A stretch of 64,000 nucleotides of DNA from Desulforhabdus amnigena (GTDB lineage: Bacteria > Desulfobacterota > Syntrophobacteria > Syntrophobacterales > Syntrophobacteraceae). A program made the position numbers and the translations under genes. The notes beneath the pieces are model-generated. The model worked only from the letters and a program-made list of their open reading frames with translations. It had not been told where the DNA came from and searched no databases. Shown one piece after another: positions 445-30,522 of the stretch (the first letter of the stretch is position 1; each line of letters starts with the position of its first letter). The DNA lies in contig NZ_BSDR01000001.1 of NCBI RefSeq assembly GCF_027925305.1, positions 1,081,001 to 1,145,000 on the forward strand, written 5' to 3'.

Positions 445-957
445 ATGCTGATCGAGACCTCACGTTTCGGCACGCTGGATGTGGAGGAGAGCAAATTCAT
501 CCGTTTTCCCTGGGGCATTCCGGCTTTTGAAGACCTCAAGCGATTCATTCTCATGGAACATGGTTCGGGACCCATCCACTGGCTTCAGGCGGTCGACGAT
601 CCCTCTGTCGCCTTCGTCGTTTGTCCTCCTGAAATTCCCGGAGTGAGCTATCGTATCCCTCCACATAAAAAGGAGCCTATTCAGCTCGAAGATGATCAGG
701 ACCTTGTGATATTGAACCTGGTCTCATCCATGCCCGACCAAAACCTCCTGCGGTTTCATGTGCGAAATCCCCTGCTTTTCAATACGGCCATGCGTCTTGC
801 CTATCAGTGGAGTATAGACCCCGAGGACCTTCCAAAATACCTGGAGACCCGCAACGGGGTCGCCCTGAGTCCGGACCCGGAAGACCCGACGGGAACCGCC
901 GCTTTTATCTACTGGAAACGGGAAAAAACAGAAAAGGCCCGACCGGTGTCTAAATAA
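445..957 (+). CDS. fliW: Flagellar assembly factor FliW (CsrA antagonist)
   Basis: A 170-residue FliW-family protein. It begins MLIETSRFGTLDVEE and has the conserved FPWGIPAFEDLKRF segment at about residues 22-35, then a beta-rich body and a short charged C-terminal tail. In studied systems FliW is bound by free flagellin; when flagellin is exported, FliW is released and binds CsrA non-competitively, relieving CsrA repression of flagellin translation. It follows csrA by 32 bp, so the two are probably one operon. Its 3' end overlaps the convergent HD-GYP gene by 8 bp. Length is typical for the family. Confidence 0.95.
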   Translation: MLIETSRFGTLDVEESKFIRFPWGIPAFEDLKRFILMEHGSGPIHWLQAVDDPSVAFVVCPPEIPGVSYRIPPHKKEPIQLEDDQDLVILNLVSSMPDQNLLRFHVRNPLLFNTAMRLAYQWSIDPEDLPKYLETRNGVALSPDPEDPTGTAAFIYWKREKTEKARPVSK

Positions 958-2215
958 AGTAATCCATGGGGGTTCGAGGGTTCAAATAATAATAGACCTC
1001 GGCCTGAACCTGCGAGGGGCGGAGGCTCCTTTTGATCGTCACATCCGGGTCATCTTCCAGCTCGAAAATCACCGCCTCCCGCTTGGGAACAGCCGGATCG
1101 TAAATCAGGATGTTCGGCCGCAGGCGGTCCTTTGGATTGATGGATATCACCATTCCGATCAAGCCATTGGAAAGCTCCACCAGGCTCCCCGGCGGATAGA
1201 TACCCATAACACGGATGAAACGAGACAAAAGACTTTCGTCGAACCGGTCCCGTATGCGGCAAAACATGTGACTCAACGCTTCGTGCGGCGTCATGGCCTC
1301 TTCCGGGTCCAGTGGATTGCAGAGGCTGTCATAAGTATTCGCAATCGATATCACCTTTGCAAGAAGGGATATCTCATCGGCTTTCAGCCGATCGGGATAC
1401 CCCTGACCATCATTGGTTTCATGATGCTGGCGAATGACTTTCAGGGATTCTTCCGGAAAGTCTTCTATTTGTTTCGCAATCTCTTCGCCATAAATGGGGT
1501 GAAGTTGCAGCAACTTGCGTTCTACAGGGGTGAGCGGCCCACGTTTGATAAGGTACTTCCTGGGAATACGCTGTTTGCCGACGTCATGAAAGAGGGCCCC
1601 GAGCCCAAGCCACCGCAGTTCCTCCTCCGTCAGTCCCACCTCCCTTCCCAGCAAAAGAGCCAGCAGGGCCACATTCAATGTGTGATAGAAAACGTCTTCA
1701 TTCAAGGATTTCACATGCATCAGGTTGATAACGACATCTCTTTGCGTCAGAAGGGATTCCACCATGGTTTGAAGCAAACTGTCGGCCTCGCCCTTTGCTT
1801 CGAGCGACCCCGTCGAGAGGCTTTTGATGACCCGTTTTGCCTGCCTGAAGGTTTTTTGGAATTCTCTTTCACACTTCTGGAATCTTCTTTGTTGTTCCTT
1901 CAGGCGGCGAATACGTTCCTGCTTACGTTTCTGCAGTATGGGATCCGCATCCGCAGGTTTTTTGAAAACGGAAGCAACATCAAGTGCTTCGGGCACACCG
2001 ACTTCAGCGGGCGGCAAAGGCGGCTGATCGCTTTTCTCCGGCTTATAGACCACACTGGAAATTCCCAAATCCTTCAGAACCTTGATTTGATTCTCCGACT
2101 TGATTTTGAAGCTATTGAAAGCAAACGGATGTTCAATCCAGCGCAACTCCAGTCGAACATAAACCCCCACGCGCAACCGATCCAGTGATATACGCTGCTC
2201 CGACATCACTACCAT
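950..2215 (-). CDS. HD-GYP domain cyclic-di-GMP phosphodiesterase (DUF3391-HD-GYP)
   Basis: About 421 residues, cytoplasmic. The N-terminal 100 residues resemble DUF3391 (LRVGVYVRLELRWIEHPFAFN). A charged coiled-coil linker follows, then an HD-GYP domain with the metal-binding motif LFHDVGK, the second histidine pair RQHHE and the GYP signature in GQGYPDRLKADEI. All key residues are present, so hydrolysis of c-di-GMP is predicted. Start choice: AAGGGA lies 5 bp before the ATG at 2215, while an upstream in-frame ATG at 2242 lacks a good ribosome binding site. The gene is convergent with fliW and overlaps it by 8 bp. A repeat lies upstream. It may tune c-di-GMP for motility, inferred from position only. 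Confidence 0.9.
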   Translation of the reverse strand: MVVMSEQRISLDRLRVGVYVRLELRWIEHPFAFNSFKIKSENQIKVLKDLGISSVVYKPEKSDQPPLPPAEVGVPEALDVASVFKKPADADPILQKRKQERIRRLKEQQRRFQKCEREFQKTFRQAKRVIKSLSTGSLEAKGEADSLLQTMVESLLTQRDVVINLMHVKSLNEDVFYHTLNVALLALLLGREVGLTEEELRWLGLGALFHDVGKQRIPRKYLIKRGPLTPVERKLLQLHPIYGEEIAKQIEDFPEESLKVIRQHHETNDGQGYPDRLKADEISLLAKVISIANTYDSLCNPLDPEEAMTPHEALSHMFCRIRDRFDESLLSRFIRVMGIYPPGSLVELSNGLIGMVISINPKDRLRPNILIYDPAVPKREAVIFELEDDPDVTIKRSLRPSQVQAEVYYYLNPRTPMDYFI

Positions 2216-2395
2216 TTCGTTCCCTTTTTTTATACCCTGCACCGGAAAAAGAATGTCCCCGTCGAGGAAAACCTGTCAAAATCCCGGGAAATCAATGTAT
2301 GAAGTATGAATCGGTATATTGCCCGTATCACTTGAAACAAAACATCCTTCCAACATCACACCGGTTCATTCTCTCCAGCAATTCTCATTTTAAAA

Positions 2396-8258: not shown

Positions 8259-11006
8259 TTAGCCTTGTAGCAGACTCAGTACTTGCTGAGGCAGCTGGTT
8301 GGCCTGGGCCAGCATGGCCACGCCGGCCTGCTGGAGGATCTGGTACTTGGTGAGAGACGCCGTTTCCGCCGCGAAGTCGGCATCAACGATACGCCCGCTG
8401 GCGGCGGAGAGGTTTTCCGATACATTGCTCAGGTTGCTGATAGTGGCCTCGAAACGGTTCTGGACAGCACCCAGCTTGCCCCGGTTGCTGTCGACCTGCT
8501 TCAAGGCATTGTCTATGGCGGTGATCGCTTTGGTAGCGCCTTCAGCAGTAGAAATATCAACCTCAGAGAGGGCCATACCGGTTTTCCCACTGCCATAAGT
8601 ACCAACCGCTAATCCTGTGTTATCCAGATTGGCGGTGGTGCCTTTTTCGATGGTGAACTCCGAGGCGGAACTCAAGGTTAAAGTGCCAAAGCTCGTGCTT
8701 GAAGAGCCGAGAGCAGATACATTTGTGCCCATTAAGGTTGCTGCATCAGCGCCAGTCACGGAAATTGCGGAACCATTGGAAGCTGTCAATTTAAGCTCAC
8801 CATTTCCATCATCACTTGCTGTGACGCCTGTCTGAGTTGAATATTGATTAATGATATCCACTACATCACCAATGTCAGTGGGGTCAGCGACGCTTTTTAT
8901 ATTTACACCGTTTATTGAGACATCAAAAGCGGCATCGTATGCACCACCTGTGCTTGTTATAGCAGTACTGCTGGCTGTTGACTTAATCCCGGTATTGGCA
9001 CTGTTCAATCCATTACCAAACTGAATATTGATGTTTCGACCATCCGCAGCCACCAGCTTGATGCCGTTCTCCATACTATTGGTATCTACAGCCGTGACTC
9101 CGGTTTGTTCAGAGATCGCATTGATGGCCGCAATTACTGCCGAACGGTTACTGGCTGCCACATTTGCGTCGGTTCCGACAGCTGCCACTCCAATATTTGA
9201 GGTCTCCACACCATTGATGGTGATTGTACCCGTTCCTGCGGCAGCACCGGTCATATTAGCCCCATCGACTGAAGTGGCATTGGTCACGGCTGTAACACCC
9301 GTTTGACCGGAGACCGCATTAATGGCAGCCGCTTTGGAAATCGCGCTCGCAGCACTCAGTTTGGATGCATCCGATGCTGAAACTGCACTGGAATAGCGTG
9401 AGTAAGTGTCTGAACTCGCCTGGGAAGCTCCCACTAAGACACCGTTGATTTTCACATCCCCCGTTCCCATAGCCAATCCATTATTGGAGGTGGTTGACGT
9501 GTAGGCTGTCTGCGAACTGTACGTACCGGCTACAAGCCCTGCGTTGGCAACATTGGCATTGGCCCCTGCTCCGGCAGTGATGACAATCTCTTTGTCTGAA
9601 GTCAGAGTATAACTGCCATAATCGGTACCAGCATCGGTCTGGACAGTAGTCTTTCCACCGCCAGTGGTAATATCAATGCCTGTAGTGCCTTCATCAAAGA
9701 TGCTGCCGGCATCACCATCGGTATCAATATCGGACAAAGAGACCCTGATTTCGCGACCGTCTGCAGCGACCAACTTCACACCACTGGAATCATCTCCACC
9801 ATCTACCGCCGTGACACCTGTTTGGGAAGAAATCGCATTGATAGCTTCGATGACACTTTTTCGGCTCGTGGCGGCATCCGTATTCTGGGCCAAGGTCACA
9901 ATAGCTGTATCAACACCGTTTACGGTGATAACCCCTTTGATATCACCCACGGAATAATCAGCGCCACTCATATCAGCCCCATCGCGCTCATTCGAAGTCA
10001 ATCCACGGATACCTGTCGTGCTGGCGTCGAATCTTCCATCAGTCTGATCAAATTTGATCGTAATGTTGCGCCCATCCGCTGCCGTAAGGGTCACGCCGGT
10101 TTCATCCTGTCCTGTATCGGCAGCTGTCACCCCTGTCTGTCCAGAAACCATGTTGATCGCCTGGACAACGGCGGCCCGACTTGCAGCAGTGTCAGAGGTC
10201 GTGGTAATATTCACCTCCACACCGTTTATGGTAATCTTGCCTTTGCCTTCAGCCCCTACCATTGAAGCACCTTCTACCACATTCACATCAGCCTTGGCAG
10301 TAACCCCAGTTTGAGTAGAACTGGCGTTGATGGCCGCCGCTTTAGCTATAGCGCTGGAAGCCTTGCTGGAGGAAGGGTAAGAAGCTGTATCATCTGCTGC
10401 AGAAGAACTTCGGATGGTTACACCGTTGATAATCAAATCACCTTCACTAATGGCGGAGCTGCTGCCTCTTGCCGTAAGAGCTGCAGTGTTGCTCACTCCC
10501 AGCTTGTCCGTCCTGGTGGAATCCACGGTGACACTAAGAGTCTGGCCGGCATTGGCACCGATCTGGAAATTCTGGGCTTTGAAACTGCCGTCCAGCAGCT
10601 TGGTACCGTTGAATTCCGTCTGGGTGGCGATGCGCTCAATTTCGTCCAGGAGTTGCGAGGCTTCATCCTGGAGAGCAGCGCGGTCATCGGCGCTGTTGGA
10701 TGCATTGGCAGACTGGACGGCCAATTCACGCAGCCGCTGAAGGTTGGTGGTAACCTCACTGAGCGCGCCTTCCGCCGTCTGAGCCAGGGAGATGCCGTCG
10801 TTGGCGTTGCGAACGGCCTGATCCAGACCGCGAACCTGAGCGTTCATGCGGTTGGAGATGGCGAGGCCGGCTGCATCGTCTTTAGCACTGTTGATGCGAA
10901 GACCCGAGGAAAGCCGTGCCAGTGATTTTTGAAGAGCGCTCTGCGTCTTGTTGACATTGCGCTGTGCGGTTAGAGAAGAAACGTTGGTATTAACGGTAAG
11001 TGCCAT
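8259..11006 (-). CDS. fliC: Flagellin, giant form with repetitive central region
   Basis: 915 residues, about twice a typical flagellin. Residues 1 to about 175 are a canonical D0/D1 N-terminus (MALTVNTNVSSLTAQ, SSGLRINSAKDDAAGLAIS, NDGISLAQTAEGAL). The last 95 or so are the canonical C-terminus (VQNRFEATISNLSN, ADFAAETASLTKYQILQQAG, ANQLPQQVLSLLQ). The 640 residues between form a surface region with six QTGVTA units, each paired with a TINGV-type strand and often an AADGR-N/E-I strand; these resemble flagellin-IN motifs. Start and ribosome binding site (AAGGAGG, 7 bp upstream) are unambiguous. The leader carries a CsrA-type hairpin and both sigma-54 and sigma-28 promoter candidates. FliS, FliT-like and FliD genes follow. 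Confidence 0.97.
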   Translation of the reverse strand: MALTVNTNVSSLTAQRNVNKTQSALQKSLARLSSGLRINSAKDDAAGLAISNRMNAQVRGLDQAVRNANDGISLAQTAEGALSEVTTNLQRLRELAVQSANASNSADDRAALQDEASQLLDEIERIATQTEFNGTKLLDGSFKAQNFQIGANAGQTLSVTVDSTRTDKLGVSNTAALTARGSSSAISEGDLIINGVTIRSSSAADDTASYPSSSKASSAIAKAAAINASSTQTGVTAKADVNVVEGASMVGAEGKGKITINGVEVNITTTSDTAASRAAVVQAINMVSGQTGVTAADTGQDETGVTLTAADGRNITIKFDQTDGRFDASTTGIRGLTSNERDGADMSGADYSVGDIKGVITVNGVDTAIVTLAQNTDAATSRKSVIEAINAISSQTGVTAVDGGDDSSGVKLVAADGREIRVSLSDIDTDGDAGSIFDEGTTGIDITTGGGKTTVQTDAGTDYGSYTLTSDKEIVITAGAGANANVANAGLVAGTYSSQTAYTSTTSNNGLAMGTGDVKINGVLVGASQASSDTYSRYSSAVSASDASKLSAASAISKAAAINAVSGQTGVTAVTNATSVDGANMTGAAAGTGTITINGVETSNIGVAAVGTDANVAASNRSAVIAAINAISEQTGVTAVDTNSMENGIKLVAADGRNINIQFGNGLNSANTGIKSTASSTAITSTGGAYDAAFDVSINGVNIKSVADPTDIGDVVDIINQYSTQTGVTASDDGNGELKLTASNGSAISVTGADAATLMGTNVSALGSSSTSFGTLTLSSASEFTIEKGTTANLDNTGLAVGTYGSGKTGMALSEVDISTAEGATKAITAIDNALKQVDSNRGKLGAVQNRFEATISNLSNVSENLSAASGRIVDADFAAETASLTKYQILQQAGVAMLAQANQLPQQVLSLLQG

Positions 11007-12370: not shown

Positions 12371-12979
12371 TTAGAACGATGGTTGGATTGGTGGGTCCCC
12401 AGATGATTCCCTGCGCCGTTCCCCGCGCCAGAGATCAGACAGGTTGATTTCAATCTCGGTAAAAGGCTCCGCCCGCACTTTGGCGTCTTCCACATAAAGA
12501 CCGGCAACCATCCAGTTGCCGTGCTCTAGCCGAAACACGTCGAGAGTCTCGGCTACGGGGTCGATAAGCCAGAAATATGGAACTCCACGCCGGGCATAGA
12601 TAGGCATCTTTTCCATCTTGTCCCTTTTGAGAGTACTGGGTGAAAGCACTTCACAGATCCAATCCGGCACAACCGAGATCCAGTTGTGGGGTTCTTCGTC
12701 AGGAAACCTCTCTTCTTTCCACCCGGCCAGATCCGGAACCAAAATATGTTCCCCCAGCCCGATTTCAGGTTCCATCAGGATAATCCACCCGCCGGGTCCG
12801 CCACGCCCAAACTGGTATGGTGGTATTACTTCACCACCCAAAGCTGTCGCAGTGTAAATGTGTTTCCTCGACGGCCTGGGAGTGACAACCAATTCCCTGT
12901 TGATGATCTCTCCAGTCATGTTTTCCGGGATACTGAAAAGATCTTCGTAGGCGGCTTTTCGCTTTACCGGTTCCGACAT
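12371..12979 (-). CDS. Uma2-family (DUF820) protein, second paralogue
   Basis: 202 residues with the same order of family blocks as the copy at 2.6 kb: YEDLFSIPENMTGEIINREL, TPRPSRKH, PEIGLGEHILVPDLAGWKEE, ICEVLSPSTLKRD and MPIYARRGVPYFWLIDP. The predicted active-site D, E and K-rich segment are present. GGAGG lies 7 bp before the ATG. Its C-terminus is about 15 residues longer than the neighbour at 13.1 kb, with an Arg/Glu/Ser-rich tail. It is close to that neighbour, so a tandem duplication is likely. Biochemical role is unknown. Confidence 0.85.
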   Translation of the reverse strand: MSEPVKRKAAYEDLFSIPENMTGEIINRELVVTPRPSRKHIYTATALGGEVIPPYQFGRGGPGGWIILMEPEIGLGEHILVPDLAGWKEERFPDEEPHNWISVVPDWICEVLSPSTLKRDKMEKMPIYARRGVPYFWLIDPVAETLDVFRLEHGNWMVAGLYVEDAKVRAEPFTEIEINLSDLWRGERRRESSGDPPIQPSF

Positions 12980-13076
12980 TGTTTCGCCTCCTCAAGAAGG
13001 CCGGATCTCATCCGAAGCGTGGTATAGTTCAATAGCATTGCCCTCAAGGGGTTCCTCACGAGCTCGCCTGCAGGTC

Positions 13077-13676
13077 TTACTCCTTCGTCGATTCCTCGAG
13101 CGGCCGTCTGAAACGTGTTTCGAGCCATAGATCACTGAGATTGATTTCGATATCGATAAACGGCTCTGTCCTTACTTTGTCGTTTTCCATATAGACGCCT
13201 GCCAGCACCCAGTCGCCGTCTTGCAGGCGAAAGGCGTCGAGGGTTTTAGCTATCGGATCGATAAACCAGAGATATGAAACTCCATGCCGTGCATAGATCG
13301 GTGTCTTTTCAACCTTATCTCTTCTGAGAGTGCTGGGTGAGAGCACTTCGCAGATCCAGTCCGGAGGAACCGATATCCAGTTGTGAGGCTCTTCTTTCGG
13401 GTATCTTTCCCGCCTCCAGCCGGCCAGATCCGGGACCAGGATGTCCTCTCCGAACCCGATTTCCGGCTCAATGAGAATAATCCATCCTCCTGGTCCTCCT
13501 TCTCCAAACTGATAGGAGGGGCCCAACCTGTATCCCAGGGAAGAGGTTGTTTCAACATGATTTCTAGATGGCCTGGGAGTAACGACCAATTCCCCGTTGA
13601 TGATCTCTCCGGTCATGTTTTCCGGAATACTGAAAAGATCTTCGTAGGTAGCTTTTCGCTTTGCCGGTTCCGACAT
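13077..13676 (-). CDS. Uma2-family (DUF820) protein, third paralogue
   Basis: 199 residues, near-identical to the 12.4-kb copy over the N-terminal 30 residues (KRKATYEDLFSIPENMTG). It carries the same putative nuclease core: PEIGFGEDILVPDLAGWRRE, ICEVLSPSTLRRDK, TPIYARHGVSYLWFIDP. Ribosome binding site GAAGGAG lies 6 bp before the ATG. It lies 97 bp upstream of its paralogue and 37 bp downstream of a broken ATPase fragment, all on the minus strand, a small accessory island between flaG and the lipoprotein gene. Function unknown. Confidence 0.85.
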   Translation of the reverse strand: MSEPAKRKATYEDLFSIPENMTGEIINGELVVTPRPSRNHVETTSSLGYRLGPSYQFGEGGPGGWIILIEPEIGFGEDILVPDLAGWRRERYPKEEPHNWISVPPDWICEVLSPSTLRRDKVEKTPIYARHGVSYLWFIDPIAKTLDAFRLQDGDWVLAGVYMENDKVRTEPFIDIEINLSDLWLETRFRRPLEESTKE

Positions 13677-15023: not shown

Positions 15024-15719
15024 ATGTTGGAATCACCTATCAGGATACTCATTGCCGATGACGATGATTTATGCCGTGAAATACTCCGCGATGCCATACA
15101 GGGCGAGGACGTTTTCGTAAAGATCGCAGCCGATGGCGTGGATGCCCTGGAGATGCTCGGAAGTTCTCCCTTCGATATCCTGATCACGGACCTCAACATG
15201 CCCCGCATGGACGGACTCACCCTTCTGGGGCATGCGCGAGAACTCCATCCCCACATTCTTTCCATCATCATCACAGGCTTCGGCAGCCTAGAATCAGCCA
15301 TCGAAGCCATCAGGCGAGGGGCATACGATTACGTTCAAAAGCCTTTCAAGCTGGAAGAAATTTCTGTCGCCATAAGAAACGCCAAAGAAAAGATCACTAT
15401 TCTAAGAGAGAAAACGCAACTTTTGAAGGAGCTTGAAGAGGCTCATCGAAAGCTCCAATATTATGCCTCTTCACCGTGTGGAGAAAGTGATTCCCCCAAT
15501 GACACGGTAGAACCAGGGGAAGGCAAAGGAACGTTCTATCTCTTTCCCCGTCACATCTTGCCCCTCTCCTTTCTACAAATTCCTCAAACGGATTCCTCGC
15601 GCATATTGACCGAACTCGAACGGCTCAAGAAGTTGAAACAGGACCGAATCATCAATGAAAATGAATTCGAACGTCTCAAAAAGCGAATCATGGATAGAAC
15701 GGGACCGGGCGCTTCATGA
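15024..15719 (+). CDS. Response regulator with C-terminal SHOCT-like domain
   Basis: 231 residues. The receiver domain (about 5-120) has acidic residues ADDDD at 11-15, phospho-acceptor D56 in ITDLNMP, and the Lys switch in YVQKPFKLEE. A short coiled coil and a linker of about 50 residues follow. The last 30 residues, LERLKKLKQDRIINENEFERLK, match the SHOCT pattern (short C-terminal two-helix domain). No DNA-binding domain is present, so output is probably by protein contact. Its stop overlaps the next gene by ATGA, giving a three-gene operon with an HD-GYP regulator and a kinase. Confidence 0.88.
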   Translation: MLESPIRILIADDDDLCREILRDAIQGEDVFVKIAADGVDALEMLGSSPFDILITDLNMPRMDGLTLLGHARELHPHILSIIITGFGSLESAIEAIRRGAYDYVQKPFKLEEISVAIRNAKEKITILREKTQLLKELEEAHRKLQYYASSPCGESDSPNDTVEPGEGKGTFYLFPRHILPLSFLQIPQTDSSRILTELERLKKLKQDRIINENEFERLKKRIMDRTGPGAS

Positions 15720-17227
15720 AAATTCTCATCGTTGAAGACGATATACTGCTTGGCGACATGCTGAAAGAATCTCTCCAACATTTGGAGCATGAAAGAGTGG
15801 AGGTTTCAACCACCGGTAGAAATGCTCTGAAATGCATTGAAGAAGAACTCTTCGATTGCGTGTTTGTGGACCTCAACCTTCCCGATATCTTTGGAGTGGA
15901 CCTGCTCAATGAGATCAAACGTCAAGATCCAGCACTCCCGGTGATCATGATGAGCGGCCATCCTACCATGGACTACGCCATGGATGCCATGCGCAAGGGC
16001 GCGTCCGATTTCCTCACCAAACCCTTTACGCTCCAAAACCTGGTTTTGACCCTTGAACGGGTCACCAAGGAAAAGAAGCTCCTCATGGAGAACCTCCGCC
16101 TGAAGTGGGAAAGCCAGACACGCAGGCAACTGGAGGCCGTGAACCAGCAGCTCCAGGAAAGAATCCAGGAACAAACGAGGCTTTTCGAAATTGCCAGGGA
16201 CCTCGACGAGATACATTCCGATGGCGACCTCTATGGAAGAGTCGCTCAAATCTCTTCCGACATTACCCGTTCCCCCAATGTCGCAGTCTTCCTGCTTCCC
16301 CCTGAAAAGGACAAACTTGTACTTCTCGCCGGCCACGGCATGGACGGATTATCCGGCAAGGATTGCATCTTTTCCGCCAATCGTTTGCAACTCAAAGAGC
16401 TGGCTTTTGAAGAAGCCTACCCCGCGGCTTGTCCGTCACACGAATTGATAGGTTCGCCCCATCTCCAAAAGTACAACCTGGAGGACGCAACACTTTCCTG
16501 CTGGCCTCTGAAAATACGGGGAGAGTTGTTCGGTTTCCTCATGACGTTTCGCGACAGGTCTTCTGCGGCACTTTCCGCTTCACAGCTAAAACTCATGGAT
16601 TTCCTTACCAGGAAGACGTCCTTGGCCATGGAAAACCTGGCACTTTATGAAAACCTGATCAGCAACTTTTACGGAATCCTCAGATCCCTCGTGAATGCTT
16701 TGGAGGCCAAGGATCCCTATACGGGAAAACACTCTGAAAGAGTCACCCTCTACGCCGAGCGTATTGCGCTATCCATGGGCAGCTCTCCGGCATCTATCGA
16801 ATCTTTGCGCACAGCCGGGTACCTTCACGACATCGGCAAGATGGGTATAGCAGACAAAATCCTCAATAAACCATCGGCCCTGACCCACGAAGAATTTGAG
16901 CTTATCAAAAAACACCCAGTGATCGGTGAAACCATTGTTGCGGATCTGGGGCTGAGCCCGGAGGAGCGATCCATCATTCTCCATCATCATGAGCGATGGG
17001 ACGGCAGGGGCTATCCTCACGGTCTGCGGGGGGAAGAAATTCCACAACCGGCCAGAATCGTAGCGGTAGCCGATGCTTTCGATGCCATGACTTCAAAGAG
17101 AGCTTATCGAAAAGCGCTTTCCGCAAAGGAGGCCCTCAAGGAAATAATCGACAACCGGGGCACACAGTTTGCTCCCGACGTCGTGGATGCCTTCAGAGAG
17201 ATTATGCAGAGGAAACAAAAGGAATGA
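15716..17227 (+). CDS. Response regulator: REC-GAF-like-HD-GYP (c-di-GMP phosphodiesterase)
   Basis: 503 residues. REC at 1-120 with EDD at 7-9, phospho-acceptor D52 in VFVDLNLPD and the Lys in FLTKPFT. A helical linker leads to a GAF-like domain at about 155-310 (FEIARDLDEIHSDGDLYGRV and LMDFLTRKTSLAMENLALYE). HD-GYP at about 325-500 has EAKDPYTGKHSERV, LHDIGKMGIAD, HHHERWDGRGYPHGLRGEEI and VADAFDAMTSKRAYRKALS. All catalytic residues are intact, so phosphorylation-controlled breakdown of c-di-GMP is expected. It overlaps both neighbours by ATGA, which implies translational coupling with the downstream kinase. Confidence 0.93.
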   Translation: MKILIVEDDILLGDMLKESLQHLEHERVEVSTTGRNALKCIEEELFDCVFVDLNLPDIFGVDLLNEIKRQDPALPVIMMSGHPTMDYAMDAMRKGASDFLTKPFTLQNLVLTLERVTKEKKLLMENLRLKWESQTRRQLEAVNQQLQERIQEQTRLFEIARDLDEIHSDGDLYGRVAQISSDITRSPNVAVFLLPPEKDKLVLLAGHGMDGLSGKDCIFSANRLQLKELAFEEAYPAACPSHELIGSPHLQKYNLEDATLSCWPLKIRGELFGFLMTFRDRSSAALSASQLKLMDFLTRKTSLAMENLALYENLISNFYGILRSLVNALEAKDPYTGKHSERVTLYAERIALSMGSSPASIESLRTAGYLHDIGKMGIADKILNKPSALTHEEFELIKKHPVIGETIVADLGLSPEERSIILHHHERWDGRGYPHGLRGEEIPQPARIVAVADAFDAMTSKRAYRKALSAKEALKEIIDNRGTQFAPDVVDAFREIMQRKQKE

Positions 17228-22789: not shown

Positions 22790-23173
22790 GTGGCTTATAA
22801 AGACATGACCGTTCTGGTTGTTGATGATTTTTCGACCATGCGTCGCATTTTGCGTAACATTCTACGGGACCTTGAGTTCAAGAATATCCTTGAAGCCGAA
22901 AATGGCGCCTCAGCTCTCGATATTTTGAATTCCCAGGAGGTTCATCTCGTTGTTTCCGACTGGAACATGCCCAAAATGACGGGCCTGGAGCTCCTAAAAA
23001 GTGTGCGGGCGACAGAGAAAATCAAAGATGTGCCGTTCCTGATGGTTACAGCGGAAGCGCAGAAGGAAAATATTGTCGAAGCCGTAAAAGCAAAAGTCAG
23101 CAACTACATTGTCAAGCCTTTTACGGCAGCCACTCTCGCTGAAAAGCTGGCAAAAATACTGCCCCCGAATTAG
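22790..23173 (+). CDS. cheY: Chemotaxis response regulator CheY
   Basis: 127 residues, starting at a GTG with AGAGGAG 8 bp upstream. Typical CheY: VVDDFSTMRRILRNILRDL, phospho-acceptor D57 in VVSDWNMPKMTG, conserved Thr in MVTAEAQKENI and Lys in YIVKPFTAATL. The N-terminus is very like enteric CheY. It lies immediately before cheA and is the most likely motor-binding CheY, acting on FliM, whose N-terminal CheY-binding motif is present at 53.9 kb. TAG stop. Confidence 0.96.
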   Translation: MAYKDMTVLVVDDFSTMRRILRNILRDLEFKNILEAENGASALDILNSQEVHLVVSDWNMPKMTGLELLKSVRATEKIKDVPFLMVTAEAQKENIVEAVKAKVSNYIVKPFTAATLAEKLAKILPPN

Positions 23174-23197: not shown

Positions 23198-25357
23198 ATG
23201 AAATCCGAAGATACTGTTTTATCCCTCGATGAAATCCGGGAGCTACTCACAAATGGTGTCATCGCAGCAAGCGACGACCTCATGGGCATGGGGGAGTGTC
23301 TCAACCTGCTGGAACATGCGGAACAGGCATGCGATCTTTCGGAATCATCCAGGAGAAAAATACTCAAGCTCAAAGAAATCATCAACCGGCTCATACTCGA
23401 TGAATCCAGAGATCCGGAGTCAGACTGGGGTACGGTTCAGAATTTGTTGAACGGTCTTTTTTCGAGTACCTCCGATGAAGATTCGCCGATGGATTTCGAT
23501 CTGGATGATTTGGGAAACCTCGATCGATGCAGAGAGGAAATGATCCTTGAAGGCGATGCCCCTTCAAGCGAAACGGCGGAGACATATGACCCGGAATTGC
23601 TCAAGGATTTCATCGAAGAAGCGAAAGAGCATCTGGCATCCATAGAGATCAACATGCTCTCTCTTGAAGCGAACCCGGAAGACGAGGAAGCCATAAACGC
23701 CGTATTTCGTCCATTCCACAGCATCAAGGGGGTCGCGGGGTTCCTGAACCTGGGTGAGATTCATCATTTAAGCCACGAAGTCGAGAACCTTCTGGACGCA
23801 GCGCGCGCGGGCACCATTGTCGTCACGGAAAACATGATCGACATCGTTTTGAATGCCGTGGATATCCTCAAGGTGCTCCTCCAGGAACTGGAAAAATCTT
23901 CTGTCCAGGGAACCGGGATCGGCTCTCTTTCGCAACTGGTAGAGCCCTTCCTGGAAAAAGTGAGAAGCCTCCAATCGCCCGATGTTCAAGAGCAAAAACC
24001 CGCCACGAAGAAACTCGGTACGATCTTGGTCGAAAAAGGGCTTGTGGATGAAAAAGTCATACAAGAGGCAGTGAAGGCGAGCAAGTCAAAAGGGACGAAG
24101 CTGGGGGAAGAACTCGTTTGCATGGGTGCGGTCGATCCGAGGGACGTCTCCGAGGCTCTCGGCGAACAGCGCAAGATCAATGAAAATACAGCCTCTGTCC
24201 GCATAGATACTCAAAAACTGGACAATCTCGTGGACATGGTGGGAGAGCTGGTCATCGCCCAATCCATGGTCCTCCAGAACCCGGATCTGCAGAATATCAA
24301 GGATCAGAAACTCCAAAAAGATATCGCGCAATTGGGGCGGATTACCGCCGAACTCCAACGCATCAGTCTTTCCATGCGTATGGTTCCCATAAAGAGCACC
24401 TTCCAAAAAATGATTCGTCTTGTCCGGGATGTGTCCAAGAAAGCAGGCAAAAATGTGGTCTTGGAAATGAAAGGGGAGGAAACGGAGATCGACCGGAACA
24501 TGGTCGAAGAGATTTATGAGCCGCTGGTGCACATGATTCGCAATTCCATCGACCACGGAATAGAGTCTCCCGAGGAAAGGACGGAAGCCGACAAACCGGC
24601 GCAAGGAACCGTTTTCCTAACAGCAGAGCAAAAGGGAGGCAATATACTCATCAACATTCAGGACGACGGTCGAGGGCTGGATGTGAAAAGAATCCATGCC
24701 CGGGCCGTGGAACGGGGCATTATCGGAGCAAATGAGCCTCTCGAAGAAAGGGAAGTGTATGATCTCATCTTTCATCCCGGCTTTTCAACCAAAGACCAGG
24801 TAACAGAAGTTTCGGGCCGGGGTGTTGGAATGGATGTGGTGAAAAAGAGCGTGGAAAGGCTGCGAGGTAAAATCGAAATATCCAGCTCAAAAGGAAATGG
24901 CACCCGATTCAACCTCAAGCTGCCCCTCACGATGGCTATCATTGACGGAATGATCGTACGGGTGGGTGAGGAACGTTTTGTAGTCCCCACCATAGCCCTC
25001 AAGGAATCGCTCCGGCCGGCTCGAGAAGCCTATCTGACAGTGCAGGGCAAAGGTGAACTGATCAAAGTGAGGGAACAACTCATGCCCCTCATCCGGCTTC
25101 ATGAGATTTTTGAAGTGGAACCCCGATACCGAAATCCATGGGAAGGATTGCTCTTGGTGGTCAATGAAGACAATCGCTCGTATTGTCTGCAGGCGGATGA
25201 AATTATCGGGCGCCAGGAAGTGGTGATCAAAAGTCTCGGAACGACACTGCGTCATCTCGGCGGAATTTCAGGGGGAGCCATTCTTGGGGATGGAAAAGTT
25301 GCCTTGATCGTTGATGTCAAAGGTATCGTGAGTCTCTACGAGGACAAATTAAGATGA
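23198..25357 (+). CDS. cheA: Chemotaxis histidine kinase CheA with MshEN-like insert
   Basis: 719 residues. Residues 1-120 are an acidic helical extension with no recognised family. The Hpt (P1) domain follows with H174 in FRPFHSIKGVAGFLNL. At 272-324, where P2 would be, two 24-residue units start KLGTILVEKGLV and KLGEELVCMGAV, separated by the five residues KSKGT; this is the spacing of MshEN (GspE-N-like) c-di-GMP-binding domains. P3 (IDTQKLDNLVDMVGELVIAQ), P4 with HMIRNSIDHGIE, DDGRGLD and SGRGVGMDVVKKS, and a CheW-like P5 follow. It phosphorylates CheY and CheB. The first position of each MshEN-like unit is Lys rather than Arg, so ligand binding is uncertain. The stop overlaps the CheZ gene (ATGA). 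Confidence 0.95.
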   Translation: MKSEDTVLSLDEIRELLTNGVIAASDDLMGMGECLNLLEHAEQACDLSESSRRKILKLKEIINRLILDESRDPESDWGTVQNLLNGLFSSTSDEDSPMDFDLDDLGNLDRCREEMILEGDAPSSETAETYDPELLKDFIEEAKEHLASIEINMLSLEANPEDEEAINAVFRPFHSIKGVAGFLNLGEIHHLSHEVENLLDAARAGTIVVTENMIDIVLNAVDILKVLLQELEKSSVQGTGIGSLSQLVEPFLEKVRSLQSPDVQEQKPATKKLGTILVEKGLVDEKVIQEAVKASKSKGTKLGEELVCMGAVDPRDVSEALGEQRKINENTASVRIDTQKLDNLVDMVGELVIAQSMVLQNPDLQNIKDQKLQKDIAQLGRITAELQRISLSMRMVPIKSTFQKMIRLVRDVSKKAGKNVVLEMKGEETEIDRNMVEEIYEPLVHMIRNSIDHGIESPEERTEADKPAQGTVFLTAEQKGGNILINIQDDGRGLDVKRIHARAVERGIIGANEPLEEREVYDLIFHPGFSTKDQVTEVSGRGVGMDVVKKSVERLRGKIEISSSKGNGTRFNLKLPLTMAIIDGMIVRVGEERFVVPTIALKESLRPAREAYLTVQGKGELIKVREQLMPLIRLHEIFEVEPRYRNPWEGLLLVVNEDNRSYCLQADEIIGRQEVVIKSLGTTLRHLGGISGGAILGDGKVALIVDVKGIVSLYEDKLR

Positions 25358-26754
25358 TGATATCGGTAGAAAAAGAAGATTGGATCGAACTGATTCAAGC
25401 ACTCAAGAATATCAGTGAAAAAACATCCTCATGGGTCGACGTGGAGAGCGATACCGAGGAGATCGCTGAATCTCAAAAGCTCCTGCAGTCTTTTCATACT
25501 ACTGCCGCCATGTTGGGCCTCCAACAGCTGGAAGAGGCCGGTGTCGCCCTGGAAAAGTATTTGCTCAAGCCAAAGGAACCGGGGAGCAATGGAGAAGTTC
25601 CATCCAATTTCAATCTCGCTGTAGATGCCTTGCTGACCAGGCTCGAAAACACTCATGAAACGGAATATCACAACGTGTCGTGTGTTGAGGAAATCACCTC
25701 CATACTGGAGGGGGCTTTCCATGCTCCCCCGGAAAGCACAACCCTTGCGGAAAAGGATGTGCTCCCAACGCCGGAGTCTTTGACGGAATTATCCAAGGAA
25801 GAGACAAGACGGCAGGTAGCTGCTGGAGATGCGGATCACTCTGCCGCCGGTTTTGACGATCTGGATCAAATTGTATCCAAGCTCGGCGGACAGCTGATCA
25901 TAAACAGGGAAACTGCTGAAAATGGAAAAGGGTCTTTCCAACTCCATTTTCCATCGGACCCGGACATCTTGAAACGCATCGGGACATTGCTGGCGCCATG
26001 CGACCCCAATTCGCAGTTTGCTTCACAATTGAACAATCGAGACACCAAAGTGGAGGCAATCCTGACCGGTATCAAGAAATTTATGAACGCTCTTTCCAGC
26101 GGCAACCTTGCGGAGGCCCAGGAGATCCTGCTTTCTTTCCAGGAAAAACAGCAGCAGGCAGGACTTTTTGTGGAGATAGGAACTCTGGCCAGAGACCTGC
26201 ACAATTCCTTGAAGAGCTTTATGAACACTATGGATCCCGCCTTGAAGGACCTGGTTATGGACAAACTGCCGGACTCGGGCAACCGCCTGGAACATATTCT
26301 GCAAATCACGGAACATGCTGCGACCACCACCCTGGATCATGTTGAATCATTGCAGAAAAGAAATCAGATGGACCAGGCCAATCTGGAGAAACTCCAAAAG
26401 ATTCTATCCGGCCTCAAAGCCATCGGGGAACCCGCTCAGGCTCGTCTCACGGATAGCGGTACCCTACTCGATCAACTGAGTGCTTCTGCCATTCAAACCC
26501 GTGATGATTTGATCACGATACTCACCGCTCAAGATTATCAAGATCTGACGGGACAGATCATCTTGAAGATTATCAATTTATTGAACGATCTCCAGCTCAA
26601 AATGGTGAATCTCATTCGAACTTTCGGGGTGGCGATCGATGATCGGAAGAAGACCCAGTCGGAAGAATTGTATGGACCAGCACATCAAGGAAAACTGGGT
26701 GCACTCCATTCTCAGGATGATGTGGACAACCTGCTGGCTGAATTCGGTTTCTAA
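25354..26754 (+). CDS. cheZ: CheZ-type CheY-P phosphatase with long N-terminal extension
   Basis: 466 residues, over twice the 214 of enteric CheZ. The C-terminal half is CheZ: a long helical hairpin, the catalytic stretch AQDYQDLTGQ (D397 and Q401, equivalent to D143 and Q147 of E. coli) and the CheY-binding tail DDVDNLLAEFGF. The N-terminal part (about 1-110) is helical and resembles an Hpt domain with SFHTTAAMLGLQQLEEAG around H48, but it lacks the Lys-Gly after the His, so phosphorylation is doubtful. An acidic linker separates the halves. Translationally coupled to cheA. The fusion may dock CheZ to the receptor array, an inference. Confidence 0.9.
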   Translation: MMISVEKEDWIELIQALKNISEKTSSWVDVESDTEEIAESQKLLQSFHTTAAMLGLQQLEEAGVALEKYLLKPKEPGSNGEVPSNFNLAVDALLTRLENTHETEYHNVSCVEEITSILEGAFHAPPESTTLAEKDVLPTPESLTELSKEETRRQVAAGDADHSAAGFDDLDQIVSKLGGQLIINRETAENGKGSFQLHFPSDPDILKRIGTLLAPCDPNSQFASQLNNRDTKVEAILTGIKKFMNALSSGNLAEAQEILLSFQEKQQQAGLFVEIGTLARDLHNSLKSFMNTMDPALKDLVMDKLPDSGNRLEHILQITEHAATTTLDHVESLQKRNQMDQANLEKLQKILSGLKAIGEPAQARLTDSGTLLDQLSASAIQTRDDLITILTAQDYQDLTGQIILKIINLLNDLQLKMVNLIRTFGVAIDDRKKTQSEELYGPAHQGKLGALHSQDDVDNLLAEFGF

Positions 26755-27739: not shown

Positions 27740-28798
27740 TCATCCCTGTGCCTGACGGTCTTCGAGCATTGCGAGCGCCATGCCCTTTTCTTCTTTAAAT
27801 CTGGCCCTGACAGCGGCACGCACACTCGGAGTCGAAAGTCCGAACTTCGAAGCACGCATAGCATAAACGTTTTCTATTATTTGTTTTTCCGTGATCTCTT
27901 TTCCCGAAGATTGAATCCGCTCGACCGCCTCACTGAAAAGATTGGCCGCCCCATGAGGACCATGCTGAACGGCGGTGCTCCAAAGCACCTGTTGAAGCAC
28001 TCCGGATTGTGCGCTGATATCCACACCGGTTTTTTCCTGAATTTCATTTAGAGCAACATTGTAATGAGATTCTTGAATGAATTCTTCCTGCAGTTTCTCG
28101 AAACGAACCGGATCTTCTTGTGCAATTCGATTCCATTCCCTGGGCATACTTCCGTCAGTGCCTCCCGTATCGGCAGGGCCCGATTCCCGAAGTCTTGCAG
28201 ACCACTTAGGGGCATGCTTATCTAAAAATTCCAAAAAGTTCCGCAAGGTTCCCTGACGGGATGAAATCTGAAACATGCCATAGGAAGTTCCACCGTTTCT
28301 ATCGTACCCTATGGCCCCCACGCCGGCGCTGCCCGATTCGAATTGCGCAGACAAGGAACCCAGGTCATAGGAGCTTTTACTGTGTGAATGAATGGGCGAT
28401 TCCCCTGCAGCCGCCATAATCGGATTCCGGGACTTAAAATTCCCCATGCGGCCGGCCAGTTCGTAGGCTCTCAACACCATCCCGCCGCTCGAATGAGCCA
28501 TCGCCTGCAAAAAGGCCGAAGTCGCCAACTCTGCGAGACCCCCGCTCTGATTCGGCAAAGAGACGGCATCGTTTGAAAACTGTAAGACTGCATTCCGGCA
28601 AATGAAATGTCCCAAGGGTGGCTCAATCCCACGGCCGCCATCCGCTCCCGATGATTCTCTCCCCATATCGGTGCCGACCCGATTCAACACGGCGTCAAAC
28701 CGTTGTTCTCCTTTTGCATGCGGCAGGTAATTGCGAGTTTCGTCAACTTTTTCGCCGCTTGATCGTTGCCCTTGAGGAGCGGTGATTTTGAATGCCAT
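27740..28798 (-). CDS. Putative lysozyme-like peptidoglycan hydrolase
   Basis: 352 residues, no signal peptide. The N-terminal 140 residues are low-complexity and polar. The C-terminal domain has SLSAQFESGSAGVGAIGYD, then GGTSYGMFQISSRQGTL, a lysozyme/chitosanase-like active-site layout with E154 as the likely acid. QQVLWSTAVQHGPHGAANLF supports the same fold, seen in phage-type murein hydrolases. No Sec signal fits export through the flagellar apparatus, as with FlgJ. FlgJ in this cluster lacks a muramidase domain, so this protein may be the enzyme that opens the cell wall for the rod; this is inference. GAGGAG lies 6 bp before the ATG. Confidence 0.7.
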   Translation of the reverse strand: MAFKITAPQGQRSSGEKVDETRNYLPHAKGEQRFDAVLNRVGTDMGRESSGADGGRGIEPPLGHFICRNAVLQFSNDAVSLPNQSGGLAELATSAFLQAMAHSSGGMVLRAYELAGRMGNFKSRNPIMAAAGESPIHSHSKSSYDLGSLSAQFESGSAGVGAIGYDRNGGTSYGMFQISSRQGTLRNFLEFLDKHAPKWSARLRESGPADTGGTDGSMPREWNRIAQEDPVRFEKLQEEFIQESHYNVALNEIQEKTGVDISAQSGVLQQVLWSTAVQHGPHGAANLFSEAVERIQSSGKEITEKQIIENVYAMRASKFGLSTPSVRAAVRARFKEEKGMALAMLEDRQAQG

Positions 28799-28851: not shown

Positions 28852-30522
28852 TTACAATACCAACACGTTGTTTCGGCCCCCGGTTTTCGCTTCATACAGG
28901 GCCCTGTCCGCACGATCAAAAACATCTTCCTCTTTCTGATCCAGGGGTTCGACCTGTGTCCCCCCGACGCTGATGCGAACGATTATCTGTTTGCCTTGAT
29001 AGAAGAAACGGGTTTTTTCGATGGAAGAGTGTATCTTTTCGGCGACTTTTTTCATGGCTTCTCGATCTGTTCCGGGAAGGATTACAACAAATTCATCCCC
29101 ACCGTAGCGACTCAAGAAGTCGGAAACACGCAAAATCCCCTTGACCTTGTTGATCACTTCCTTCAGACACAGGTCCCCCGCTGCGTGACCATAACTGTCG
29201 TTGACATTCTTGAAGTCATCCACATCCAGCAAGAGCATGGAAAAAACCTGCCCATAGCGGGTATAACGCTGAAATTCTTCTTTGAGCCGCTGTTCATAAG
29301 CCCTTCGGTTATGGATATTCGTGAGAGGATCAATGAAGGCTTCCCTCTCAAGATTCCTGGCCCTCTCCTGGATCTGATCGATTTCCGTTTTTACATTCTC
29401 TATTTTCTTTTGGAGTCCCCCCAGTTGCTCATGGGCCTCGGCCAGTCTTTTCTCGTCTTCTCGACGCTTCATTTCAAGAGCGGAACGGATCGTAGCTATT
29501 TTAGTGATCACCAGTTTTTTTAACTCACCCAAATCAGTACTGACATCCATGGACCGCTTCATATCATCCATCTGAGTTTCAATGATCAGATTGAAATCGG
29601 CATTTGCCTGGTGCGCCTGACGCCTGCCATTGAGAGAGGAAAAAAGATGACTTTCCATTTGTACGAGGTTTTCATTGATTTCTGAGATGAACTGAGCGAT
29701 TTGCTTGCGCTCTTCTGAAATGCTTTTGATGGAAAACTCTATAAAGGCAAGAATGTCTTTTTTTATTGAAAAAAGTTGCGAAGGATCGGCACTGCGTTTG
29801 ATTTTCTGTTGCAGTTCGGATAAACCGTTCACATCCCTTTTCCCCAGATCGTTTGTGACCACCTGAAGGACATCCAGGTAAATCTCTTGAAGTTCTTTCA
29901 GGTACAAGCCGCCGGGTTCTCCCGGTTCCCTGAGGTCCTTCGCTTTTTTGAAAAGTCTTCCCCAAACCGGGGAAGAGTGATTGGAGATAGCGGGGGGCAA
30001 CAGATCCTCCTCACCCAACTTTACAAAGATTTCCTTTATATTGCTGAGGGACTTCTCGAGGTCGGCCAAATCTGTGTCTTTGAACAATAAGGATTTGAAA
30101 TCGTTCAGGGCGCAGTAGAGCGAATCATTCGCCGATGCTTGAATCCACGTCAGGAAGGTGGACAAGGAACGTCTATAAAATGTTTGCAGTTGCTCCTTTT
30201 CCTCCTGAAGTTCTATCACGTGATTGAAAAGACGTTCTTTCTGAGACTTGAGGATAAGAATTTCATTCTTCATGGTTTTGAGTTCAGCTTTCGTTTGATC
30301 CGGACATTGTAAAGACAAACCATTGCAACAGGATATTTCCGATATCAGATGAAAAACATCCTCTCTCGCAGAAAGGGCCTGGCACAGAGAAGAAGATGCA
30401 AGCGGCCGGCGCTGTGCAGAGATCTCCTTTAAAGCTTCAATGACGATTTCCGACAACCTTCCCATATTTTTGCCAAGCTCTTGAGAATCCTGACCCCGCC
30501 CCATCGGCACTCCCTCATCCAT
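28852..30522 (-). CDS. Diguanylate cyclase with long coiled-coil N-terminus
   Basis: 556 residues, cytoplasmic. The GGDEF domain covers the last 170 residues: FIDPLTNIHNRRAYEQRL, LLDVDDFKNVNDSYGH and RYGGDEFVVILPG. The inhibitory I-site RVSD lies five residues before GGDEF, so product inhibition is expected. Residues 1-380 are almost wholly helical with several coiled coils (MKNEILILKSQKERLFNHVI, LQKKIENVKTEIDQIQERAR) and no known sensor. It makes c-di-GMP from two GTP. Possible starts at 30522 and 30504 are both supported by a ribosome binding site. It lies between the lysozyme-like gene and the four-Cys gene, same strand. It opposes the two HD-GYP proteins in the window. Confidence 0.92.
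   Translation of the reverse strand: MDEGVPMGRGQDSQELGKNMGRLSEIVIEALKEISAQRRPLASSSLCQALSAREDVFHLISEISCCNGLSLQCPDQTKAELKTMKNEILILKSQKERLFNHVIELQEEKEQLQTFYRRSLSTFLTWIQASANDSLYCALNDFKSLLFKDTDLADLEKSLSNIKEIFVKLGEEDLLPPAISNHSSPVWGRLFKKAKDLREPGEPGGLYLKELQEIYLDVLQVVTNDLGKRDVNGLSELQQKIKRSADPSQLFSIKKDILAFIEFSIKSISEERKQIAQFISEINENLVQMESHLFSSLNGRRQAHQANADFNLIIETQMDDMKRSMDVSTDLGELKKLVITKIATIRSALEMKRREDEKRLAEAHEQLGGLQKKIENVKTEIDQIQERARNLEREAFIDPLTNIHNRRAYEQRLKEEFQRYTRYGQVFSMLLLDVDDFKNVNDSYGHAAGDLCLKEVINKVKGILRVSDFLSRYGGDEFVVILPGTDREAMKKVAEKIHSSIEKTRFFYQGKQIIVRISVGGTQVEPLDQKEEDVFDRADRALYEAKTGGRNNVLVL

Follow-up and report, generated by a model that had tools for sequence, protein, structure and literature searches.

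A MshEN_N-like module in the P2 position of the chemotaxis kinase CheA of Desulforhabdus amnigena and its possible c-di-GMP input

The abstract of a 2023 survey describes CheA as a kinase that has no sensor domain of its own (PMC10782961). The window analysed here, a stretch of 64,000 nucleotides from Desulforhabdus amnigena, is a flagellar and chemotaxis cluster and contains a cheA gene (positions 23198–25357, plus strand; 719 residues) whose product carries two similar 24-residue units between its phosphotransfer and dimerisation domains. This raises the question of whether the two units form a receptor module and whether c-di-GMP could enter the chemotaxis pathway at the kinase itself.

The protein contains all four domains expected of a CheA in Pfam, encoded on the plus strand: Hpt (P1; residues 133–224, positions 23594–23869; PF01627, 4e-14), H-kinase_dim (P3; residues 332–392, 24191–24373; PF02895, 2.3e-14), HATPase_c (P4; residues 441–578, 24518–24931; PF02518, 9e-19) and CheW-like (P5; residues 584–712, 24947–25333; PF01584, 5.2e-22). 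It is the sole protein found with an H-kinase_dim match in the D. amnigena genome. Residues 1–120 (23198–23557), which precede the Hpt domain, have no Pfam match at E ≤ 1 and are still recognisable in relatives (60% identity to locus L008). Between Hpt and P3, Pfam gives no match to a P2/CheY-binding domain at E ≤ 1, and P2 was set aside as the identity of the segment for want of a match; P2 is often missed by HMMER (PMC10782961).

The segment in question (residues 272–324, positions 24011–24169, plus strand) consists, exactly as the preliminary description had it, of two 24-residue units separated by a five-residue spacer, and is predicted to form four helices. Motif I is KLGTILVEKGLVDEKVIQEAVKAS (residues 272–295, 24011–24082), the spacer is KSKGT (residues 296–300, 24083–24097) and motif II is KLGEELVCMGAVDPRDVSEALGEQ (residues 301–324, 24098–24169). 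The earlier reading that KLG occurs twice and that the first unit lacks its final Gln is also borne out: KLG opens the units at residues 272 and 301, the first unit ends in Ser295 in place of the terminal Gln, and the second ends in Gln324. Positions 17 and 21 are occupied by Ile288 and Val292 in motif I and by Val317 and Leu321 in motif II, which are all large hydrophobic residues, with the consensus Leu at one of the four sites. The module is joined to P3 by a linker (residues 325–337, 24170–24208, plus strand), and the P3 anchor lies 15 residues after Gln324.

The homology of residues 272–324 to MshEN_N, the half of MshE and PilF that binds c-di-GMP, rests on the sequence evidence, and the predicted fold is in agreement with it. 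When the 71-residue segment alone is compared with PDB sequences by phmmer, it matches PilF (6F8L) at 1.2e-12 and MshE with c-di-GMP (5HTL) at 3e-6; a profile of 71 CheA modules matches the same entries at 2e-28 and 1.3e-11, respectively. An HMM built from 10 non-CheA module proteins scores the full CheA at 57.7 bits, compared with at most 16.3 bits among 20,000 shuffled copies of the segment, and matches 123 of 134 distinct CheAs gathered by similarity at 1e-3. Two members of this HMM come from the D. amnigena genome, where they adjoin PF05157 matches, and all 10 were picked with the alignment of the 71 CheA modules, so the HMM is not fully independent of it. The bit scores, the matches of both segment and profile to 5HTL and 6F8L, and the presence of the module in 123 of the 134 CheAs make a chance or unrelated helical repeat exceedingly improbable, despite the appearance of nitrile hydratase and fumarase among sub-threshold Pfam matches, the fumarase structures in the fold lists, and the fact that short helical hairpins can resemble such a module.

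The MshEN family of Pfam (PF05157) gives no match to the CheA at E ≤ 1 and is also absent among the 25 listed families matched by the 71 CheA modules. In a D. amnigena protein named from its sequence as a pilus/secretion-type ATPase (L001), PF05157 spans residues 57–139 of the scanned piece, and the two motifs lie at residues 4–56. The current PF05157 model thus represents the C-terminal half of MshEN, which is absent from CheA. Because the model begins after both motifs, its silence is not a valid test of the module, and PF05157 was rejected for this purpose as uninformative. The MshEN match first proposed is therefore upheld at the level of MshEN_N homology (57.7 bits; 5HTL 3e-6) and fails for PF05157, which covers the other half. 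Since PF05157 does not cover the module, CheAs annotated with nothing in the place of P2 may carry it. DUF4388 matches 61 of the 71 CheA modules at E ≤ 0.1; in the three cases for which the range is shown, 26–28 residues in the middle of the model match below the cut-off, and the resemblance looks like a shared helical hairpin. The matches to nitrile hydratase and to the fumarase C-terminus were discarded as sub-threshold.

AlphaFold applied to the alignment of 71 modules predicts four helices with a mean pLDDT of 83, forming a bundle that resembles residues 7–64 of 5HTL. In Foldseek, the model is superimposed on 5HTL with an rmsd of 1.0 Å over 56 columns (probability 1.00), and the seven top-ranked matches are c-di-GMP complexes of MshE and PilF GSPII-B; no match is found at E ≤ 0.001, the best E being 7.3e-3 for 5HTL. 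VIA-align also ranks 5HTL first in the PDB (Z 10.1 over 58 residues), followed by helical fumarases at about 7; for helical bundles, a Z below about 13 may reflect a common arrangement. In an AlphaFold model of CheA residues 120–719, the module is an autonomous bundle at residues 273–329, whose linker to Hpt is longer than the one to P3. The MshEN-like fold suggested in the preliminary description is thus what is predicted, with 5HTL as the best PDB match, and a conventional P2 fold is not predicted; on these models, a MshEN_N-like four-helix module occupies the P2 position of CheA. Residues 328–335, in the linker between the module and P3, have pLDDT values under 50, so that a rigid coupling of the module to P3 is unsupported beyond the constant linker length. 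A continuous helix running from the module into P3 was considered and is absent from the model of residues 120–719.

A survey of CheAs for this architecture, which had been suggested at the outset, finds the module to be widespread. The 134 CheAs were gathered through their likeness to the D. amnigena CheA (one round took the best 80 of 112) or to its module, so the figure of 123 is not a census. Nearest to a census is a sample of 69 Desulfobacterota genomes, a phylum label taken from the names of relatives. Among the 150 matches listed for this sample, a profile of module plus P3 spans both parts in at least 47 matches from at least 35 genomes, P3 alone in at least 45 matches from at least 27 genomes, and the module alone in at least 58 matches. 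Beyond Desulfobacterota, the module occurs in Brocadia and Kuenenia records (L096, L097) and in a Spirochaetia MAG (L100), all drawn from the best 80 of 112 similar loci. Eleven CheAs have no module, ten of which come from Planctomycetota or Phycisphaer(a/ae/aceae/ales) records; the remaining one, L054 (Desulfoferrobacter suflitae), belongs to a clade whose modules carry a single Gln. Two CheAs (L169 and L183) each contain two tandem MshEN_N-like modules, and four others (L172, L174, L176 and L178) have both Gln and a spacer of one residue, compared with the usual five to seven.

The residues that contact the ligand are unevenly conserved. Three rows (L107, L108 and L086) were dropped from the motif counts for an unreliable register or a deletion. 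Among the 120 readable CheA modules, 54 have both Gln, 65 (including that of D. amnigena) have the second only, and one lacks the second. Gln ends motif I in 55 of the 120 and motif II in 119, the latter comprising 54 of the 55 modules with the motif I Gln (the exception is L097) and all 65 modules without it. In the 65 one-Gln modules, position 21 of motif I is Leu in 34, Ala in 22, Val in 8 and Ile in 1. Motif II of the same modules has Leu or Ile at position 21, Lys or Arg at position 1, Ala20 and Gln24 in 65 of 65, and Arg22 in 61. Gly3 is invariant in both motifs, both by the motif-register script and in a MAFFT alignment of 71 modules, where the mean column identity is 39% and the motif II Gln stands at 90% or more; the script scored Gly3 and Gln24 among other positions, which favours finding them. 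Of the two departures noted in the preliminary description, KLG need not be degenerate, as (R/K/L)LG became the extended consensus in 2024 (PMC11731258) and the CheA module matches this start twice, whereas the missing first Gln is genuine and common to 65 of 120 modules.

This unevenness bears on the reading that the fold is degenerate, binds no c-di-GMP here and instead docks CheY/CheB or a PilZ-type adaptor through the motif II face, which we consider possible but doubtful. The module sits where P2 would be, the 65 one-Gln modules loosen at motif I Leu21 with motif II remaining tight, and PilZ has been solved in complex with a domain of this fold, the N-terminal one of X. citri PilB (7LKM, 7LKN and 7LKO are among the matches). 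However, a nucleotide site would be expected to retain the Gln of motif II that contacts the ligand and the Gly of both motifs, and these residues are retained. Moreover, a substitute for P2 docking is not required, because over half of CheAs have no P2 and show an unstructured region there in AlphaFold (PMC10782961).

A tree of the P3–P5 core, with SH-aLRT as its measure of support, was built from 128 of the 134 rows, omitting L062, whose length is unusual, and cores shorter than 280 aa. On this tree, the 66 modules that lack the first Gln are found in two 33-row clades, both with an SH-aLRT of 100, and in two Planctomycetota rows whose register is doubtful. The first clade includes the module-less L054, and the second includes L130, which has the Gln. 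The fewest changes that explain the first-Gln state on this tree are four. Both clades are surrounded by two-Gln modules, and Gln closes both motifs in most of the module-bearing ATPases, which makes loss of the first Gln more likely than gain; this Gln may have been lost once rather than twice.

The spacing around the module is nearly constant in the one-Gln class. From Gln24 of motif II to the P3 anchor, the one-Gln class has 15 residues in 63 of 65 modules and 14 in the other 2, a constancy that may come partly from relatedness; the two-Gln class has 14 to 25 residues in 48 of 51 anchored rows and more in 3, with 4 further rows having no P3 anchor. In the 63 one-Gln modules where the phosphoacceptor His was found, it precedes motif I by 92–101 residues. 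These distances would suit a structural spacer, that is, a folded module that keeps P1 and P3 a set distance apart without a ligand or partner, and L054, a member of the one-Gln clade, manages without the module, which also speaks against an essential role for it. A spacer, though, need not keep Gln24 and the Lys or Arg at position 1 of motif II, yet both are kept in 65 of 65, and we regard this explanation as unlikely. Compared with L008, the nearest relative (78% identity), dN is 0.18 for the module, 0.60 for the preceding linker, 0.09 for Hpt and 0.02 for P3, which indicates that the module evolves more slowly than the linker before it and faster than the core. dN was used in place of omega because synonymous sites are saturated in three of the four comparisons; the remaining one, with L022, gives an omega of 0.134 for the module. 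The comparisons with L008 and L059 gave identical numbers.

The evidence is evenly balanced on the reading that we put forward, a c-di-GMP input to CheA through predicted binding by the module, weakened or remodelled in the D. amnigena lineage. The ancestral, family-wide job of the module would most likely be c-di-GMP binding, with the ligand placed between the two 24-residue motifs. Binding would change the geometry of the P1–module–P3 segment and tune the reach of P1 to P4, making CheA itself a c-di-GMP effector; the simplest effect of ligand or partner binding would be an altered access of P1 to P4 or an altered dimer state of P3. In the D. amnigena lineage, the putative phosphate/ribose-contacting Gln of motif I has been lost and the second half-site kept, so that binding would probably be weaker (approximately micromolar, by analogy to the PilF single-Gln mutants) or remodelled. 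Weakened binding by the D. amnigena module is the most likely outcome, and lost binding is quite possible. Ser replaces Gln in motif I, and 22 of the 65 one-Gln modules also have Ala at motif I Leu21, both of which count against a c-di-GMP input. We infer the binding of c-di-GMP by the module, the effect on the kinase and the sign of that effect; the homology, fold prediction, position, conservation and one-sided loss come from the present analysis, and the ligands of MshEN_N and the effects of Gln and Lys changes from published work.

A more specific arrangement, which seems to us quite unlikely, would make the module one-sided in one or two Desulfobacterota CheA lineages. The Gua2 half-site (Lys301, Val317, Leu321 and Gln324) would be kept while Gua1 erodes, and both modules in a CheA dimer could share one c-di-GMP that locks the kinase dimer in a single state. 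One ligand would then bridge the P3-flanking modules, each giving one half-site and held at the fixed 15-residue distance from the dimerisation domain.

The messenger is likely made in D. amnigena, as the genome has five GGDEF and seven PilZ matches, which speaks for a c-di-GMP input. The GGDEF gene and two HD-GYP genes previously noticed nearby were found. They are a diguanylate cyclase-type gene with its GGDEF motif present (28852–30522, minus strand; PF00990, 6.2e-45), a receiver-GAF-HD-GYP phosphodiesterase-type gene with its GYP motif present (15716–17227, plus strand; PF13487, 2.5e-38), and a second HD-GYP-type gene with DUF3391 and HD_5, typed by its HD_5 match (950–2242, minus strand; PF13487, 7.8e-28). 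Directly upstream of cheA is a CheY-like single receiver (22790–23173, plus strand; PF00072, 8.2e-29), and a receiver-domain relative, counting any response regulator, occurs somewhere over 9.5 kb in 43 of 43 related loci. The cheZ gene (25354–26754, plus strand; PF04344, 5.7e-39) overlaps the cheA stop codon; its product has a long N-terminal extension with a weak Hpt match (PF01627, E 0.013) and is a possible Hpt-CheZ fusion. The window also contains two adjoining Uma2-type genes amid flagellar genes (12371–13676), a gene with a VgrG3-like C-terminal domain between a cheW gene and the GGDEF gene (27740–28798; PF21277, 9.4e-36), and a flagellin of 915 aa whose central region is long and which carries a hook-IN motif (8259–11006).

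The proposed link had been put forward as a candidate for an undescribed one, which does not hold in full, as Wang et al. (2016) already named CheA among MshEN proteins in one sentence that cites their Table 4 (PMC5013675). The 2023 survey of CheA lists P2, receiver and CheC/CheX as auxiliary domains, and the words MshEN, c-di-GMP and T2SS are absent from its main text (PMC10782961). Within the literature covered, a scope outside which preprints and most subscription papers fall, we found no c-di-GMP binding or kinase data for such a CheA module. The CheA module is genuine and under-described, a variant of a receptor module already known, carried by a kinase that is also known, and its c-di-GMP link is plausible. 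If CheA holds a c-di-GMP receptor, the messenger of the motile and sessile states would reach the chemotaxis pathway at its kinase, across a large, mostly anaerobic bacterial group. As CheAs occur naturally with two Gln, with one Gln and without the module, this question can be tested directly.

Tlp1, a PilZ chemoreceptor, is reportedly a c-di-GMP input to chemotaxis. Like MapZ-CheR1 and Cbp1, it is PilZ-based, and these systems act on receptor methylation or as receptors and not on CheA itself. In MapZ-CheR1 and in the PilZ chemoreceptor Cbp1, c-di-GMP acts on a chemotaxis component (PMC6370697, PMC6454048). The P2 domain of CheA shares the position between P1 and P3, but the present module is predicted to be a four-helix bundle instead and has no P2 match.

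The MshEN_N of Vibrio cholerae MshE (5HTL) resembles the CheA module in its 24+5+24 layout, its KLG or RLG starts, its Gly and hydrophobic positions and its four helices. In contrast to MshE, the CheA module has no MshEN_C or ATPase, carries Ser for Gln in motif I and resides in a chemotaxis kinase. Isolated VcMshEN_N binds c-di-GMP at 0.35 µM without MshEN_C (PMC5013675), so that the lack of MshEN_C in CheA does not exclude binding. The N-terminal part of PilF GSPII-C is the best PDB sequence match of the CheA module, and PilF GSPII-B shares with it a Lys, not Arg, at position 1 of motif I, where Lys goes with nanomolar affinity in PilF (PMC11731258). GSPII-B and GSPII-C both bind c-di-GMP (PMC11731258, PMC12002112); unlike the CheA module, they keep both Gln and have more of the GSPII domain after the motifs. 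Gln closes both motifs in MshEN receptors, whereas Ser295 closes the first motif in D. amnigena CheA. Single Gln-to-Glu changes in GSPII-B give 950 and 460 nM, and the double change abolishes binding (PMC11731258). In an engineered GSPII-A, Ile for both Leu of motif II weakens binding approximately 2.4-fold (PMC12002112). Wild-type GSPII-A of Thermus PilF, with His for Gln in motif I and several changes in motif II, does not bind (PMC12002112), which indicates that a related fold may be ligand-free. The non-binding GSPII-A (9G1W) and XpsE (2D27/2D28) have the fold of the CheA module and lost Gln positions: GSPII-A has lost both Gln and the Arg and Gly of motif II, and XpsE has also lost Gly and Leu positions. 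Compared with these two, by the extended consensus, the motif I Gln is the sole loss of the CheA module.
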